Part shown: in pieces, positions 23,567 to 44,109 of the stretch
Layout of the letters: every line of letters begins with the position of its first letter
How positions within the stretch are numbered: the stretch's first letter is position 1
Assembly: GCA_021824625.1 (NCBI GenBank)
Contig: JAKAKE010000124.1
Location: 1 to 46,351, forward strand
Reading direction: 5' to 3'
DNA length: 46,351 bases
Source: Bacteroidota bacterium
GTDB taxonomy: Bacteria; Bacteroidota; Ignavibacteria; Kapaibacteriales; UBA2268
Position numbers and translations under genes: made by a program
The notes under the pieces: generated by a model
Database searches by the model: none
Told to the model about the DNA's origin: nothing
What the model saw: only the letters and a program-made list of their open reading frames with translations

Positions 23567-24364
23567 ATGTTTGAAATAGAAAATATAATCAAGAATATTT
23601 ACAAAATTACCAGTTTGATTCTTTTAATTTTATTTTTTTCATCTGAAGCTGTATCTCAGGGTTCGTCGGGTGATAAAGCTAAGTACGAGTCAGGATATAT
23701 AGTGAATATGCCTACTGCCGGGTTAATACCAAAAAGTTCCTTATCGGTCTATTCAAATATTTTCGAAAATTCGGGCATGTTTGTTGAAATAAATGCTTCG
23801 CCATTTACTAATTTTATGTTGGGACTGAGCTATGGCGGCACACATATTTTGGGGAATCGGGAAATAACATGGCAAAACCTTCCCGGTATAATTCTAAAGA
23901 TAAGAATTTTTGATGAGTCACTAAGTTTCCCCGCAATTCTAATTGGATTTAATTCTCAGGGGAGGGGCCCTTATGTGTCTAATTTAAAAAGATTTCAAAA
24001 TTTATCTGCCGGATTTTTTCTGTCAGCAAGTAAGTGTTATTCGTGGAAACTTGGCAGTATTGCTTTTCATGGAGGTATTAATTACTCCATTGAACCATCT
24101 CCATCCGAAAGAATAGCAAATTATTATGCCGGTTTAGAACAATCCATAGGAAACAGAGGCTCAGTTAATTTAGAATATAATGCCACTCTCGATGAAAAGC
24201 CAGGATTAATTTTGGATAAAAGGGGATTATTGAATTTATCATTACGATATGCTTTTATTCAAAACTTGACAATTGATTTCCAATTTATTGATTTATTTAA
24301 ACATTCAGTAGGCGGCAATGGTTCAATAAGAAGATTAGGAATTGAATATATTGATGAATTCTAA
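23567..24364 (+). CDS. YjbH-like outer-membrane beta-barrel protein
   Basis: 265 residues. A signal peptide spans about residues 12-31 (ending VSQ). The body begins with YIVNMPTAGLIPKSSLSVYS and has FNSQGRGPYVSN and LDEKPGLILDKRGLLNLSLRYAF; the pattern (MPTAG near the N-terminus, alternating amphipathic strands, repeated G-x-S/x-Y) matches short YjbH-domain proteins, the barrel partner in exopolysaccharide export in proteobacteria. It would sit in the outer membrane. It diverges from the BsuPI-like lipoprotein gene and converges on the polyphosphate-polymerase cassette. No ribosome site is evident (GGAG at 23549-23552 is 14 bases before the ATG). Family assignment is by pattern only. Confidence 0.65.
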   Translation: MFEIENIIKNIYKITSLILLILFFSSEAVSQGSSGDKAKYESGYIVNMPTAGLIPKSSLSVYSNIFENSGMFVEINASPFTNFMLGLSYGGTHILGNREITWQNLPGIILKIRIFDESLSFPAILIGFNSQGRGPYVSNLKRFQNLSAGFFLSASKCYSWKLGSIAFHGGINYSIEPSPSERIANYYAGLEQSIGNRGSVNLEYNATLDEKPGLILDKRGLLNLSLRYAFIQNLTIDFQFIDLFKHSVGGNGSIRRLGIEYIDEF

Positions 24365-24399
24365 ATTGTTAGAACATTGCCAGGAGTTATTTCCAATTT

Positions 24400-24433
24400 T
24401 ATTATTCACTTTTCACTTTTCATTGTTCACTAA
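24400..24433. repeat. TTCACT periodic repeat
   Basis: Four copies of TTCACT/TTCATT-type units (ATTATTCACTTTTCACTTTT, then CATTGTTCACT) fill the gap between two convergent genes. They match the units in the lpdA-lipB gap. Confidence 0.7.
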
Positions 24434-24434
24434 T

Positions 24435-25142
24435 TTAGAACCAGCTGTCAATATTATAAAAGAGTCCTATAATATTTGACCTTTTCGGTTTTTTCATATT
24501 AATTTCTTCTTCACGCATGTAGTATAGCTGAATCTCATTATCTTTATTTATTTTAAAATTGCATCCGAGATAAAATCTGTAATTGTCAAACCTGTCACCT
24601 CTTTTATAATTAATTATATAAAACAATTCATAAGCGATGAATGGCTTGAGCCATTTAGCGGCTTCATATTCTACTGTAATTTTATTTCTAATGTGTTCTT
24701 CTGTAATTATCGAATGTGTCTTATTATCTTCTTTAAACTTTTTCTTATACGTTAATTTATATTTTAATTCGACAGGTTCAATATCATAATTAAAATATCC
24801 GCTTAAATATAGAGCATGATTAGGTAATTCGGGCCTGACATACAGTCTGTACGTTGTCGAAACTTTAAAATACTTACTAAATTTATATTTCAGGCTTATG
24901 TCGGTAATTGCTGATTTTAACTGGCTTATTTCATTATTAAACCTGAATTGTTCACCAGGTTCAATACTGAAATTATCAATTATAGGAAAGTCAATACTGA
25001 AACCCGTCCAAAGTTCAGTATCAGTGTTCTGAGCTTTAATTATCAAGATGCTAAAAATAAATGTGACTGATGATAGAAAAGTCCTATATGTAATTCTATG
25101 TCTTATAAGTTTTAAACAACGAATTATCATATTCAACTTCAT
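24435..25142 (-). CDS. DUF2490 family protein, predicted outer-membrane barrel
   Basis: About 235 residues from the ATG at 25142; an ATG at 25160 would be in frame but its codons are made of the dispersed ATTACGA/ATTCAT repeat, and an ATG at 25130 is a further option. A signal peptide ends near IIKAQ. The mature part starts TELWTGFSIDFPI and goes on with amphipathic strands (YKFSKYFKVSTTYRLYVRPE, YEAAKWLKPFIAYELFYI), ending in NIIGLFYNIDSWF with a C-terminal Phe as in many barrels; this is the DUF2490 pattern. It lies 28 bases downstream of the DUF4956 gene on the same strand, third in a cassette with the VTC polyphosphate polymerase. Function unknown; a pore for the product is one guess. Confidence 0.72.
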   Translation of the reverse strand: MKLNMIIRCLKLIRHRITYRTFLSSVTFIFSILIIKAQNTDTELWTGFSIDFPIIDNFSIEPGEQFRFNNEISQLKSAITDISLKYKFSKYFKVSTTYRLYVRPELPNHALYLSGYFNYDIEPVELKYKLTYKKKFKEDNKTHSIITEEHIRNKITVEYEAAKWLKPFIAYELFYIINYKRGDRFDNYRFYLGCNFKINKDNEIQLYYMREEEINMKKPKRSNIIGLFYNIDSWF

Positions 25143-25171
25143 TCGTAAATCATAATTCATAATTCGTAATT
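25139..25171. repeat. ATTCAT/ATTCGTAA periodic repeat
   Basis: The join between the DUF4956 and DUF2490 genes is made of TTCGTAAATCATAATTCATA followed by ATTCGTAATTA. In reverse complement this is the AATTACGAATTATGA pattern seen at 9928 and 10839. It touches the start codons of the downstream gene. Confidence 0.65.
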
Positions 25172-25808
25172 ATCTACTAAGGTCCTGGTCATCCGTATGG
25201 AATTTATCATAATAATATACCCGAATCCTTGCCACATCTCTCAGAAAATCAATTCTGATAATGTCGAACCTGTGAATATTAAGCCCTGTTCTATCCTTGA
25301 GGTCTTGAATTAACAAACTATGATTTGCAGGTTTTATCAAATCTATTTTTTCATAAATAACTTCTTTTTGACTTTCATTCTTTACAAAGAATTTCTCAAG
25401 AAAATATATTCCAACAATAATTATCAGATTTGTTATACCCATGAAGAGATAGGTGTTCTGATTGCTCAGAAGTGAGTTAATAAGTGCAACGGCAATAGAA
25501 ATGAAAACATAAGTCATTTCCTTGATAGGTACCGTAATTGTTCTATATCTGAGTATGGAAAAAATAGCAAAAATACCAAATGCAAAACCTATGCTTAACT
25601 GAGTGCTTTGCAGTAAGAAACAAACAAGAAAAACAAGAATGTTAAGTACAAAGAAAGTGAAAAGGTATTCTCTTTTACGTCTGAAATGAAAATAAATTAG
25701 TTTTGTTATAACGAAAATGGAAATAATATTTATGACAAATCTTAAAGCGAAATGCAAGTAAAAATCACCGTTTAAAATATGAAAGCTAAAGAAATTTGAA
25801 GTATCCAT
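25170..25808 (-). CDS. DUF4956 membrane protein
   Basis: 212 residues from the ATG at 25808; the frame stays open up to 25901 but that start would overlap the preceding gene by 116 bases, against 23 with the one chosen. Four to five membrane segments lie in residues about 15-160 (FALRFVINIISIFVITKLIYF, YLFTFFVLNILVFLVCFLL, LSIGFAFGIFAIFSILRYRT, TYVFISIAVALINSLL, NLIIIVGIYFLEKFF), followed by a cytoplasmic C-terminal domain with a predicted ferredoxin-like beta-alpha-beta (LLIQDLKDRTGLNIHRFDIIRIDFL, ARIRVYYY). The RYRTITVPIKEM loop is the DUF4956 hallmark. These proteins often sit beside VTC-domain polyphosphate polymerases, as here. It may anchor or regulate the polymerase, or move its product. 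Confidence 0.8.
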   Translation of the reverse strand: MDTSNFFSFHILNGDFYLHFALRFVINIISIFVITKLIYFHFRRKREYLFTFFVLNILVFLVCFLLQSTQLSIGFAFGIFAIFSILRYRTITVPIKEMTYVFISIAVALINSLLSNQNTYLFMGITNLIIIVGIYFLEKFFVKNESQKEVIYEKIDLIKPANHSLLIQDLKDRTGLNIHRFDIIRIDFLRDVARIRVYYYDKFHTDDQDLSR

Positions 25809-26580
25809 CCTGATTGTCGCATTGCTTGTTAATAAATAGTAATCTTGGTTTAAATCTATTATATTTAATATCGGGATAAGCCATAATACTACCTGTTGCA
25901 TATTTGCTTATCCTAATCTTTCTTATTCTGAATTTATTCATAAGTTTAATGTATTCGGAATTGGGATTAAATCTTTCCTGTTTGATTTCAGCTATTACAA
26001 GTCCGGGCAGGTATGACCATCCATTAACCATACCTTTAAATGAAAGGTCTTTGTCAAAAGTTACTTTTTCATTGTGCTTTTTATGGACCAGCGTAATCCT
26101 GGAATAATTAACCCAAAGTTTTGGTGATAGATTTTCGAGCTTAGGTTCAACCTCCTCATAAATCAATTCATTTGCATCTTTAGTGAGGTAGTTTTCAATT
26201 TTCTCTGCCTGAATCCTGTTTTTTATTGTTATTTGTTTGTTTGTTTTTTTCTTTATTTCAAAAAAAATAGTGTTGTTGTCTATATATTTTCTATACCTGA
26301 TTTTATATCTGTTTAGTTTGCCGTTATGGTGCTGAAAGTACATGAATAAATCAGGAGTGTCATAATAAAGGTTTTCATAAAGGAATTCCTTTTTATTCTC
26401 AATTTCCAAAATTTTATAATTACTTTTTAATTCTTCAAGGACTGATGAAAGTTCACTATGCCTGAAAGCATATTTGGTATCCTGACGGTTATTAAGGTTC
26501 AGGGTATTTACATATTCGAGAGTAGCAGTATCAAACTGCTTTAAAGTATTATCATCTCTTTGCTCAACGGAATTATACAT
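25786..26580 (-). CDS. VTC-domain polyphosphate polymerase
   Basis: 264 residues forming one VTC tunnel domain. Basic and acidic residues of the tunnel are visible in order: RQDTKYAF (Arg32, Lys36), YYDTPDLFMY (about 72-81), NRYKIRYRKY with Arg91/Lys93/Arg95/Arg97, FFEIKKKTNK (Glu108, Lys110), TIKNR, the KKHNEKVTFDKDLSF strand and IAEIKQERF. Such domains polymerise the gamma-phosphate of ATP into polyphosphate, as in yeast Vtc4. No membrane segment is present, so it is cytoplasmic but probably held by the DUF4956 partner that follows with a 23-base overlap. The gene is first in the cassette and diverges from aspC over 532 bases. Polyphosphate synthesis is inferred from family, not shown. Confidence 0.85.
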   Translation of the reverse strand: MYNSVEQRDDNTLKQFDTATLEYVNTLNLNNRQDTKYAFRHSELSSVLEELKSNYKILEIENKKEFLYENLYYDTPDLFMYFQHHNGKLNRYKIRYRKYIDNNTIFFEIKKKTNKQITIKNRIQAEKIENYLTKDANELIYEEVEPKLENLSPKLWVNYSRITLVHKKHNEKVTFDKDLSFKGMVNGWSYLPGLVIAEIKQERFNPNSEYIKLMNKFRIRKIRISKYATGSIMAYPDIKYNRFKPRLLFINKQCDNQDGYFKFL

Positions 26581-27112
26581 TTAATATCAGTATTATATAA
26601 CAAAATGGTACTGATTACCCTATTCCGCCTCCTTTTTATTGGTTAAACAATTATACAAAAATTGTATATTTTTTAATTTTGTCATTCATCTTACTATAAT
26701 GACACATAAAACGGAATTTGGTCTCAAAAAAAATTAAATTATTTTAAAAAACTTTTAAAATAAATTAGAAAATAAATAAATTATTTAACGAAAACTTTAA
26801 CTTATTAATTCAAATCAAACGACTTATTGAACCACAAATTTAACTATAAATACCATAATTGAAAAGTATTATTTTATTGAATTTTTCAATTATCCATATT
26901 AAGATTAACTTAATATGCCATTGTTAAAAGATATATTCAATTATTTCATTTTATATAAATATTGTTTTATACAAAATAATTTTTTGTTTCTGATTATTTT
27001 CAGCAATTTTGAAGTTTATTTTAAAGTACTTATGATAAATATTCACTTTAATATTATTTAAGAAATTTGATTAAAATAGGTATATCAAAATACAGGAGTA
27101 GAATTCAGTTAT
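26581..27112. other. Divergent promoter region between the polyphosphate cassette and aspC
   Basis: 532 very AT-rich bases. The one clear structure is the perfect palindromic hairpin at 26895-26917 (listed separately). No TAnnTTTG box in good context, RNA gene or coding frame was found. Confidence 0.5.
26895..26917. promoter_or_regulatory. Perfect palindrome, possible operator
   Basis: CATATTAAG and CTTAATATG flank a five-base centre ATTAA. There is no T-run, and the site lies in the middle of a divergent intergenic region, about 195 bases before aspC and 315 before the VTC gene, which fits a dimeric regulator site better than a terminator. Confidence 0.35.
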
Positions 27113-41098: not shown

Positions 41099-42547
41099 TT
41101 ATTTTTTTTCCTGAACTATCATGCTTTTATTAAGTGCCTTTAGGAAAGTTTGCTTCAAGGGTTCTTTCATCAAACTTATAGTAAATACCTTACCGCCTTG
41201 TTTAATTATTGTTGAATTAATTATTGAAAAAATCATACCGAGTGGTACCCACATACTATCTTTTACAAGATTATTACCTGTAATATAATTTATTAAAACC
41301 TGATGCAACATTAAGTAAAATATCAATCCAATAAGACGACGATGTTCCATTGTTAAATCTGAAAAATTTTTTTTATTTGTTATATATTTGCCTGAAATAA
41401 CCATAAGTGCAATAAACATTCCAGTCAACGATATAAAACCAATCAATCCTGTTTCGGCGAGGGCTGTCAGTGATGAAAAATCGCTGAAATATATATCTTC
41501 TTCTTTGTCATAAGCCGTTAAACCGATTCCACATCCGTTTATTGGGTGTTTCTTCCAGATATTAATGCTCCTTTCGGCTGTGTTCATTCTTCCATAAATT
41601 GATTCACCTTCCATTCCCTCACTCTTTACTGAACCATAATGCCATATCCCTTCAATCCTGTTTTGGAATAGCTCTGCAACACTAACATCTGCAAAACTTT
41701 TAACTATGGAGTCGGTTAAAAAAATTATTAAAACAGATGATATTAAAATGATAATTAATGGGACTAACCTCCTGAAGCTTTCAAGCAGAAATATTCCTGT
41801 TATTACCAGGAATACTCCCACGAAAGCAGTCATTGAAAATGTAAGAAATAAACCTGCTAATGTTGTTATAAATAAAATTATATTTAAAATTTTCGATTTA
41901 AAGAATGCTTTTGTTTTTTGAATATAGGGTATTAATAAAAAAGTGAAAATTACAACATTAAATGAAGCCAAAGCAGACGGTTCCGGAAAAATTGACGTAG
42001 CCCTAAAAAAATTCCCCCAATGAAGGCTCAACTGCTTTATTTCTTCTATATTAATAGTACCTCTAACGCCCATGCTGATATTTGTGAAATCGAGCCATGC
42101 AAAAGGTAGATCGAATGCCCGTGCAGGTATTTGATATATCCCAAAGATATTTATAATTATTGACATGATTAACCACATTTTAATAACATTGGTCCATGTC
42201 TCGGTTTTGATAGGATAGGAAACAGCTATAAATACAAAAAACCCTAAGAATATTATGTGTATTGAAGTCTTCAGAAATTGTAATAAATTTGTTGATGAAC
42301 CGCTAAGTAGAGGTGTTATGCCCGATAGCAAAACTGCAATAAATAATCCAATGAAAAAATATACAGCTTTGTGCCAGCCAATAATAAGCTTATCACCATT
42401 CCAGATAATCCTTTTAATAAAATAAAGATAAAATAGTAATGTTACTAAATCCAATGATGTAACCCCATAAGTGCCGGATAATGGAAACACCTGGTAGTTA
42501 TACAAAAAAATTGTAAAAAACATTAATAATAAATAAATCTGAACCAT
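41099..42547 (-). CDS. O-antigen ligase/polymerase-like membrane protein (Wzy_C family)
   Basis: 482 residues with about eleven hydrophobic segments. A long periplasmic loop in the second half (about 280-365) carries RIEGIWHYGSVKSEGM, GRMNTAERSINIWKKHPINGCGIG and the following Tyr/Asp-rich part; R...W...HP(I/L)xGxG is the mark of Wzy/WaaL-type ligases and polymerases. The enzyme would join glycan repeats or transfer them to a lipid acceptor on the periplasmic face. It is the last of three polytopic minus-strand genes (GT-C-like, acyltransferase-like). A T9SS with A-LPS anchor needs such a ligase, so a role in making the LPS that PorU uses is possible, but not shown. Confidence 0.78.
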   Translation of the reverse strand: MVQIYLLLMFFTIFLYNYQVFPLSGTYGVTSLDLVTLLFYLYFIKRIIWNGDKLIIGWHKAVYFFIGLFIAVLLSGITPLLSGSSTNLLQFLKTSIHIIFLGFFVFIAVSYPIKTETWTNVIKMWLIMSIIINIFGIYQIPARAFDLPFAWLDFTNISMGVRGTINIEEIKQLSLHWGNFFRATSIFPEPSALASFNVVIFTFLLIPYIQKTKAFFKSKILNIILFITTLAGLFLTFSMTAFVGVFLVITGIFLLESFRRLVPLIIILISSVLIIFLTDSIVKSFADVSVAELFQNRIEGIWHYGSVKSEGMEGESIYGRMNTAERSINIWKKHPINGCGIGLTAYDKEEDIYFSDFSSLTALAETGLIGFISLTGMFIALMVISGKYITNKKNFSDLTMEHRRLIGLIFYLMLHQVLINYITGNNLVKDSMWVPLGMIFSIINSTIIKQGGKVFTISLMKEPLKQTFLKALNKSMIVQEKK

Positions 42548-42588
42548 TTTATCTTTGACAGTTTACAAATAATGATTTATTTGACGTA

Positions 42589-44109
42589 TTATTCAGTTGA
42601 TTTATGATATAAATAGAAATCATAATACCTGCTAACCAGCTTCCATCCTCTTTTTTCATGCTCCGGCCCTAAAAATTGCTCTGTATAAAATTTCCAATCG
42701 CACAACCAATTAATATTTTTCTTGTCCAAATAATCATAAATCTTTTCTTTATATTTCAAAGCTTCATTGTTTACTTTTCCATCCAGATTAACAACGTGAT
42801 TCCTAAAAAATCCGAGTGTGCCGCTTTGTCCTGCACCTACATATTCGGTTTTTGGAACATATTTATTCACCAATTGTAATTGATATTTAAAGAATTGGCT
42901 TTTATTTAACATTAATTCTGTATGAAATAATATTACAACACCTAATATTAATAAAGCAAATGCTGTCAGAATAAAGTAAAATATTTTTTTAAATTTCCTG
43001 TAAATTATTGTTACAAATATTACAAAAAATATTTGGCCTATTATTGATAATGATATTAAATACCTCAAGTAAAAATGTCCGGCTGATGAAAAAAAGAAAT
43101 ACCAAATTGTTAATATTAGTGAATATACAAAAATTACAGAAATTATTTGATAAGTTCTTTCAGACAATTTATTGGATTTAGAAGTATTTTTTATTATACC
43201 TTTAAAATACTTTTTTAAATAATATGACATAGCCCCAATTATAATTAATCTTATTATAACACTTATCCATCCATGTAAAAACCTATCAAATGTATAAGTG
43301 AATGGAGTTAAGTTTTGAACCCATGCATCAGAAAGATAAAATAACCTTGAAAAAAATATTCCAAATTCAAACTGTGCCTGACCACTTGTTGGCATTAATG
43401 AATTAAAATAATAATAATTATAAAACCACCACGGTGAAGATATTAAAAATGAAACAATACATATTGTTATTACATAAATTAATCTTGTTTTTAAAGTTAT
43501 TTCCTTCCGAAAAAATAAGGAAATTGAAAATACAATTACAAAATAAACAGTATCAATTCTTATTAACACCATTAATCCAAGTATGATGCCAAGAACAGTT
43601 ATATTTTTGAAATTTAATATTTGTGATTTTTGATAAAATCTTATAAATAACAAAAAACTTAAAATAAGTAATCCTGTTTCCAATCCGTTGAGATAATTAA
43701 TTAAAAATAACAATGATGAGATATAAATAGAATATGCTATCCCAAATAATTCATTTTTACCCACTCCAAGAAGTTCACTAAAAGCATCACGAATAATAGA
43801 AGCAAATAAATATGCCGAAGAAATAAATATTAGTAAAAGGAGTATAAATATTATTCTAATTGATAAATAATCATTATTTGTAACTGCAAATGCAGGTATA
43901 ATCAGGAAAGTGTATAATGGTTGAAATCCATTTGTCAGATTTTCTCCGTCAGCAGTTATACCATTATTGTTCGCTATATTCTTTGCAATAGAAAAAGTAT
44001 AATAAGCATCTTCGATAATTGGATGGTCAATGATTAACGAACCGGTTCTGAATGACAATGAAATTATACTAATAAAAATTACAACTGAAAGAATCTTCAG
44101 ATATTTCAT
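42589..44109 (-). CDS. GT-C-type membrane glycosyltransferase-like protein
   Basis: 506 residues. After an N-terminal membrane anchor comes IIEDAYYTFSIAKNIANNNG, where the Glu-Asp pair on the first periplasmic loop fits the catalytic acid motif of GT-C enzymes (ArnT/PMT/GT39-like). About ten further hydrophobic segments follow (for example LLILSFLLFIRFY, LGIILGLMVLIRIDTVYFVIVF), and a C-terminal soluble part of about 90 residues (VGAGQSGTLGFFRNHVVNLDGKVN, ending YYDFYLYHKSTE) resembles the tail of uncharacterised Bacteroidota and delta-proteobacterial relatives. It would use a polyprenyl-phosphate sugar on the periplasmic side. The donor and acceptor are unknown. It is followed 41 bases later by the ligase-like gene. 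Confidence 0.68.
   Translation of the reverse strand: MKYLKILSVVIFISIISLSFRTGSLIIDHPIIEDAYYTFSIAKNIANNNGITADGENLTNGFQPLYTFLIIPAFAVTNNDYLSIRIIFILLLLIFISSAYLFASIIRDAFSELLGVGKNELFGIAYSIYISSLLFLINYLNGLETGLLILSFLLFIRFYQKSQILNFKNITVLGIILGLMVLIRIDTVYFVIVFSISLFFRKEITLKTRLIYVITICIVSFLISSPWWFYNYYYFNSLMPTSGQAQFEFGIFFSRLFYLSDAWVQNLTPFTYTFDRFLHGWISVIIRLIIIGAMSYYLKKYFKGIIKNTSKSNKLSERTYQIISVIFVYSLILTIWYFFFSSAGHFYLRYLISLSIIGQIFFVIFVTIIYRKFKKIFYFILTAFALLILGVVILFHTELMLNKSQFFKYQLQLVNKYVPKTEYVGAGQSGTLGFFRNHVVNLDGKVNNEALKYKEKIYDYLDKKNINWLCDWKFYTEQFLGPEHEKRGWKLVSRYYDFYLYHKSTE

Follow-up and report, generated by a model that had tools for sequence, protein, structure and literature searches.

Described systems that pair the making of a polymer with its passage through a membrane provide the background for the locus reported here. 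The alginate system consists of a polymerase, an inner-membrane part and an outer-membrane barrel. In yeast, the VTC complex couples the making of polyphosphate to its movement through a channel that has basic residues, as passages of PMC9911596 describe. Among Gram-positive bacteria, Pel operons bring together genes for CotH, a poly-phosphate polymerase and DUF4956 (parts of PMC7112168), and for the gonococcus the relevant parts of PMC10237660 place polyphosphate on the exterior and suggest that other gene products may take part in its translocation across the outer membrane. The window analysed here (the whole stretch of 46,351 nucleotides, from a Bacteroidota draft genome of 3.58 Mb in 231 contigs) contains a three-gene cassette for a VTC-domain enzyme, a DUF4956 membrane protein and a DUF2490-like barrel (Table 1). 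We read it as a candidate unit in which an anionic polymer, most likely polyphosphate, is made and, in a coupled step, exported across the envelope, and put the probability of this reading close to an even chance, though short of one. No paper describing the cassette was found in searches of open-access literature.

Table 1. Features of the cassette and its surroundings, with examples of the lipoprotein gene from related loci.
Feature	Position	Strand	Family match or remark
Convergent gene, secreted barrel-like protein, 265 aa	23567-24364	plus	no Pfam family at E <= 0.1
DUF2490-like outer-membrane beta-barrel	24435-25142 (alternative start 25160)	minus	PF10677, E 6.4e-19
DUF4956 inner-membrane protein	25170-25808 (ORF opens 25901)	minus	PF16316, E 3e-49
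Soluble 264-aa enzyme with VTC domain (triphosphate tunnel), predicted polyphosphate polymerase	25786-26580	minus	PF09359, E 2.5e-26
Intergenic region before VTC, AT-rich; presumed promoter site	26581-27112		without ORF of at least 80 aa
Lipoprotein, example 1	L059:10409-10816		
Lipoprotein, example 2	L061:10414-10824		
Lipoprotein, example 3	L064:7803-8228		

The genes are transcribed in the order VTC, DUF4956, DUF2490, and all three match their Pfam families on the minus strand, which upholds the trio given in the preliminary description. The DUF4956 start was corrected from 25901 to an internal ATG at 25808 because, in an alignment, most relatives begin near it. With this start the overlap with the VTC gene, also proposed at the outset, comes to 23 bases, and such short overlaps are common among relatives. 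The barrel gene offers two ATGs, at 25160 and 25142, leaving gaps to DUF4956 of 9 and 27 bases in place of the 28 first given. The Bacteroidota promoter form, TTTG-n-TANNTTTG, had no match in the intergenic region 26581-27112 and two across the whole window, against 4.2 expected. A cassette-type DUF4956 is present in four of nine sampled genomes of the window's own family and its distribution is therefore patchy. The G+C content at the cassette is 0.293 (24001-26000; of all 2-kb steps of the window, one alone, 42001-44000 with 0.270, lies below it), a low value compatible with such patchy presence. Two records of Candidatus Kapaibacterium stand among the best named DUF4956 relatives (52% and 42% identity; the best 80 of at least 541).

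The arrangement of the trio is not chance. In the class sample, all five other loci from the window's taxonomic order hold the trio in identical gene order and strand. DUF4956 scores split into 22 places at 153-205 bits and a remainder below 75 bits. Among the 22 of the high-scoring group, a same-strand DUF2490-like barrel comes immediately after DUF4956 in 12, stands immediately before VTC in three and is one gene farther upstream in another one. Eighty regions were chosen from the DUF4956 match places, namely all 21 high-scoring ones outside the window and 59 of the lower-scoring, and six loci that kept no DUF4956 ORF after filtering (L082, L110, L115, L182, L185 and L204) were dropped from the counts. 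Addition of 80 named loci to the high-scoring group brought the number of subfamily loci with a DUF4956 ORF to 99; as these 80 are the best of at least 541 confirmed relatives, this sample leans towards the present DUF4956 subfamily. The labels VTC, DUF4956, barrel, lipoprotein and CotH in the locus counts come from purpose-built HMMs, seeded from loci of the DUF4956 match places and iterated except for CotH. Across this set, with its best 80 of at least 541, a same-strand DUF2490-like barrel lies no more than five ORFs away in 64 of 99 loci (51 of 81 once near-duplicates are out), VTC is found near DUF4956 in 89 (76 of 81 without near-duplicates), and 35 have no detected barrel. DUF2490 beside VTC is thus seen elsewhere, and the barrel, at first taken for the unusual part, is instead a common third member of this subfamily.

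Genome content tells a similar story in a phylum sample of 395 genomes, counted without regard to kinship. DUF4956 is encoded in 57 of 57 VTC genomes, VTC never occurring without it. DUF2490 is encoded in 21 of 21 subfamily genomes versus 119 of 374 others, and in VTC genomes outside the subfamily it shows no enrichment (8 of 38); the barrel is therefore tied to the subfamily and not to VTC generally. PPK1 is present in 20 of the 21 subfamily genomes, which makes VTC a second system, hardly needed for cytoplasmic stores.

The VTC protein scores 93.1 bits against PF09359 (gathering cut-off 23), its only other Pfam match at E <= 0.1 being VraX, below the cut-off, and its VTC domain spans residues 30-230 of a 264-residue chain without an SPX domain or fused membrane domain. 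A profile of 20 VTC relatives matches yeast Vtc2 (E 2.4e-5) and Vtc4 (E 3e-4) in the PDB. Twelve residues are invariant in 122 aligned bacterial VTCs; R91, K93, R95, E108, K110, R161, T174, D176 and K226 are kept in 122 of 122, and E198 and K200 in 121. Of these, R91, K93, R95, R161 and K226 stand for the basic tunnel residues, and E198 for the metal-binding Glu, to be looked for in a Vtc4-like polymerase. R95, R97 and E198 are the probable equivalents of Vtc4 R264, R266 and E426, positions that the alignment covers only partly; the solved yeast complex carried Vtc4 R264A/R266A/E426N (parts of PMC9911596). From its sequence, the protein is predicted to be a polyphosphate polymerase. At the three mapped positions of the acidic patch known from TTM phosphatases, R32 and K200 are basic, as for a polymerase without an acidic patch (relevant parts of PMC4641920, on a putative residue mapping), and D34 is acidic where Vtc4 has Thr. 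The last of these leaves some room for the idea that the protein is another triphosphate-tunnel enzyme, a polyphosphatase or a part of exopolysaccharide modification, and that the cassette handles another polyanion. This idea would also suit the Pel operons, with their CotH, polymerase-like and DUF4956 genes (parts of PMC7112168), and the literature matches listed, from a search not directed at assays, in which no assayed bacterial VTC was met. The basic catalytic residues invariant in 122 bacterial VTCs tell against it, as do R32 and K200, and we consider it unlikely.

The DUF4956 protein scores 167.4 bits against PF16316 (cut-off 30.6), and in its AlphaFold2 model (mean pLDDT 86.7) a small beta-alpha-beta-beta domain at the C-terminus accompanies five predicted membrane helices. 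By the positive-inside rule its RRKR loop would put the N-terminus outside and the first loop and C-terminus in the cytoplasm, in which case the conserved RYRT motif would face VTC. Foldseek gave no match to the fold in the PDB at E <= 0.001, and the best VIA-align row, at Z 6.5, says little. Direct membership of this subfamily in MgtC/SapB is unsupported, with an hhalign probability of 0.4% (0.5% for a merged DUF4956 alignment against MgtC). The 17 DUF4956 sequences outside the subfamily match MgtC/SapB at 76% (E 2.2e-5), and the two DUF4956 groups match one another at 94%; by such profile comparison a distant MgtC tie would be visible only via the sequences outside the subfamily.

The barrel scores 68.8 bits against PF10677 (cut-off 29.8). 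At E <= 0.001 all 48 VTC-linked barrels match DUF2490 and one of the 48 matches Pfam KdgM (PF06178), the barrel of the window matching DUF2490 only. Its AlphaFold2 model (mean pLDDT 93.4) has 11 strands by DSSP, an odd number. The best VIA-align rows for the model are VhGalP, NanC and KdgM (Z 16.0-16.5); the predicted model meets KdgM at Z 16.1 over 160-161 residues with an rmsd of 2.5-2.6, and the autotransporter NalP (15.8) and others lie within one Z unit. Foldseek places a yeast TOM chain first (TM-score 0.22, poor) and NanC second (0.48), and the sequence profile has KdgM (E 0.0028) and NanC (E 0.015) on top. We therefore describe the barrel as probably KdgM-like in fold and do not file it as a KdgM member. 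KdgM and NanC, its nearest by profile and among the nearest by model, are uptake porins for acidic oligosaccharides, and this lends something to a reading in which VTC and DUF4956 take polyphosphate no further than the periplasm or inner membrane and the barrel, an uptake porin for short anionic oligomers or phosphate, is merely co-regulated. Such a reading also finds some support in the 25 of 99 subfamily loci (best 80 of at least 541 included) where VTC-DUF4956 has neither detected barrel nor lipoprotein. On the other side, the barrel adjoins in many families, and tree distances, compared without a species-tree control, are correlated between barrel and VTC (r 0.57), barrel and DUF4956 (r 0.48), and VTC and DUF4956 (r 0.50).

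Charge inside the barrel bears on the same question. When, of the two alternating sets of residues in each strand, the one that is more polar by hydropathy is taken as the lumen side, R67, R99, K129, R152, K154 and R189 (numbering of 24438-25142) fall on it; R67, R99, R152 and R189 are 94-100% conserved over the 48 linked barrels, and the conserved arginines thus appear to face the lumen. Arg and Lys reach 0.25 per lumen position versus 0.04 outside, and acids 0.19 versus 0.04, a charge excess that is partly circular because Arg and Lys are polar and polarity defines the side. Forty control DUF2490 barrels not chosen for VTC linkage, hand-picked among high-scoring places and with at least seven from genomes that also hold the cassette, share basic columns 67, 110, 129, 131, 152 and 189 and acidic column 172. 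Most of the arginine track is therefore general to DUF2490, and we rejected it as proof of polyphosphate specificity. Columns basic mainly in the VTC-linked barrels are 99 (98% versus 5% of controls) and 154 (90% versus 15%), and mean net charge is +8.5 in linked barrels versus +4.8 in controls. These two columns again speak against a merely co-regulated uptake porin, a reading that we hold to be unlikely.

Many relatives add a lipoprotein some 135 residues long, which has a lipobox cysteine and carries the pattern GxGGxxxIxGxV. Within the 99 subfamily loci, best 80 of at least 541 included, it lies in the same gene row in 37, most often directly before VTC, with a barrel also present in 33 of the 37; 62 loci have no detected lipoprotein. 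Its matches to Pfam are weak (SdrD_B in 19 of 24 members, best E 1.1e-4; CarboxypepD_reg in 13 of 24, best 4.4e-6), and a search of the window's genome, run without a positive control, gave no match. Some loci carry two such genes or a longer form of 230-280 aa, and the whole is an uncharacterised lipoprotein family tied to VTC-DUF4956.

CotH is encoded in 55 of 57 VTC genomes versus 80 of 338 others in the 395-genome sample (Fisher p 3e-27, kinship ignored), and in the window's own family in four of four VTC genomes versus none of five without VTC. The CotH HMM, with seeds chosen by eye (five of six coincide with Pfam CotH places), has a match within 6.5 kb in 22 of the 99 subfamily loci (best 80 of at least 541 included); in 16 of the 22 the E-value is below 1e-20, seeds of the HMM lie in six, and two matches are on the opposite strand. 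One Deinococcus plasmid also has CotH beside VTC-DUF4956. Together with the Gram-positive Pel clusters (parts of PMC7112168), these counts would suit a unit that serves CotH: VTC and DUF4956 would supply extracytoplasmic CotH with an exported phosphate donor, polyphosphate or another, or CotH would modify the carrier of the polymer. Against this stand 80 genomes with CotH and no VTC, two VTC genomes without CotH, and the window's own genome, whose CotH is on another contig, in two neighbouring ORFs. CotH kinases, moreover, use ATP as donor, and overall we judge service to CotH improbable. A broader proposal, in which a whole-envelope machine of polymerase, inner-membrane channel, lipoprotein and anion-selective barrel exposes surface polyphosphate that secreted CotH uses as donor in place of ATP, scarce outside the cell, is in our estimate very doubtful. 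Concerning the CotH genes themselves, the own-genome contig (L278:4834-9461) has two same-strand CotH-type ORFs behind an ORF that by eye looks lamin-tail-like, possibly a split or tandem gene. On the plasmid of Deinococcus sp. QL22 (L277), the neighbours of VTC-DUF4956 are an acid phosphatase and an operon for a phosphonate/phosphite transporter.

Next to the cassette, the preliminary description had placed a YjbH-like barrel converging on it. The convergent gene is there and its product is barrel-like (Table 1), but the YjbH identity is unsupported for want of any Pfam family; phmmer at E <= 0.01 found no homologue among the ORFs of 160 other regions, and we do not count the gene as a cassette member.

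Outside the subfamily, none of 56 loci with a DUF4956 ORF has a DUF2490-type barrel. The partner met most often there comes from a family of HlyD-like adaptor type with 45 ORFs, of which 27 stand upstream of DUF4956, at a distance of two genes, and 18 come immediately after it; four of eight tested match a HlyD family (two over the cut-off) and four match none. A Porin_O_P barrel comes after DUF4956 in locus L007, as does an annotated porin on a Pseudoalteromonas plasmid. That DUF4956 is found repeatedly beside envelope parts is an argument for a role in transport across the envelope. In L174 and L178, two loci with an Anaerolineae label, VTC and DUF4956 are followed by a CotH-type gene, with no barrel match; Anaerolineae are regarded as having one membrane, and a missing barrel is as expected if these cells lack an outer membrane. 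Two further sets of DUF4956 loci are without VTC. In L073-L076, L078, L081 and L083 a short DUF4956 (185-186 aa) faces a convergent gene of 625-645 aa, which in L081, the one scanned, has a PPDK_N ATP-binding domain, another phosphate-linked DUF4956 pairing. In L090, L091, L112, L113, L117, L119-L122 and L126 a conserved gene row runs YceI, DUF6580, DUF4956, HlyD-like, a gene that looks TolC-type by eye (no Pfam match) and short-chain dehydrogenase, as judged from one scanned member per family. Iron regulation was considered for BT3498 to 99 (DUF4956, DUF2490) and set aside, the change of -7.6 fold with P 0.175 in the relevant part of PMC10434189 being non-significant.

We return to coupled synthesis and export. 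VTC would polymerise phosphate from ATP at the cytoplasmic face, and DUF4956 would anchor it at the inner membrane and pass on the nascent chain, a role taken by the fused helices in yeast VTC. The KdgM/NanC-like DUF2490 barrel would carry the polyanion through the outer membrane to the surface, the small lipoprotein would join the barrel in many relatives, and CotH kinases at the surface may act on the polymer or with it. In this scheme we infer the product, the direction and the contacts between the parts. The set of enzyme, inner-membrane protein and outer-membrane barrel from which the preliminary description started has gained substance from the conserved gene order, the KdgM/NanC-like barrel model and the conserved VTC catalytic residues. 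If the scheme is true, it supplies named candidate genes for the still unexplained export of polyphosphate in Gram-negative cells, and coupled polyphosphate synthesis and translocation would reach from eukaryotic vacuoles to bacterial envelopes, with other membrane parts. The CotH link also suggests, in a testable way, where phosphate outside the cell could come from.

Set beside known systems, the cassette shares with the Gram-positive Pel operon accessory genes the pair of VTC-type and DUF4956 genes and the CotH partner (parts of PMC7112168); those hosts are Gram-positive, however, and the same parts of that paper describe no barrel. With the KdgM, NanC and VhGalP porins it has in common a barrel fold and a basic lumen for polyanions, both predicted for the cassette barrel, whereas the sequence relation is weak (E 0.0028, with one of 48 linked barrels matching Pfam KdgM) and the cassette barrel accompanies a polymerase. 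Alginate export through AlgE offers the same combination of polymerase, inner-membrane part and outer-membrane barrel, but the Foldseek match of the cassette barrel to AlgE is weak (E 3.7e-4, TM-score 0.39) and Pfam shows no glycosyltransferase family in the cassette's three genes. The eukaryotic VTC complex (Vtc1/2/3/4/5) likewise combines a VTC/TTM polymerase domain with a membrane part, and cytosolic synthesis with translocation. In the cassette, by contrast, VTC is without SPX or fused helices and the DUF4956 protein would be the membrane part; an outer-membrane barrel comes in addition, as does a lipoprotein in relatives.
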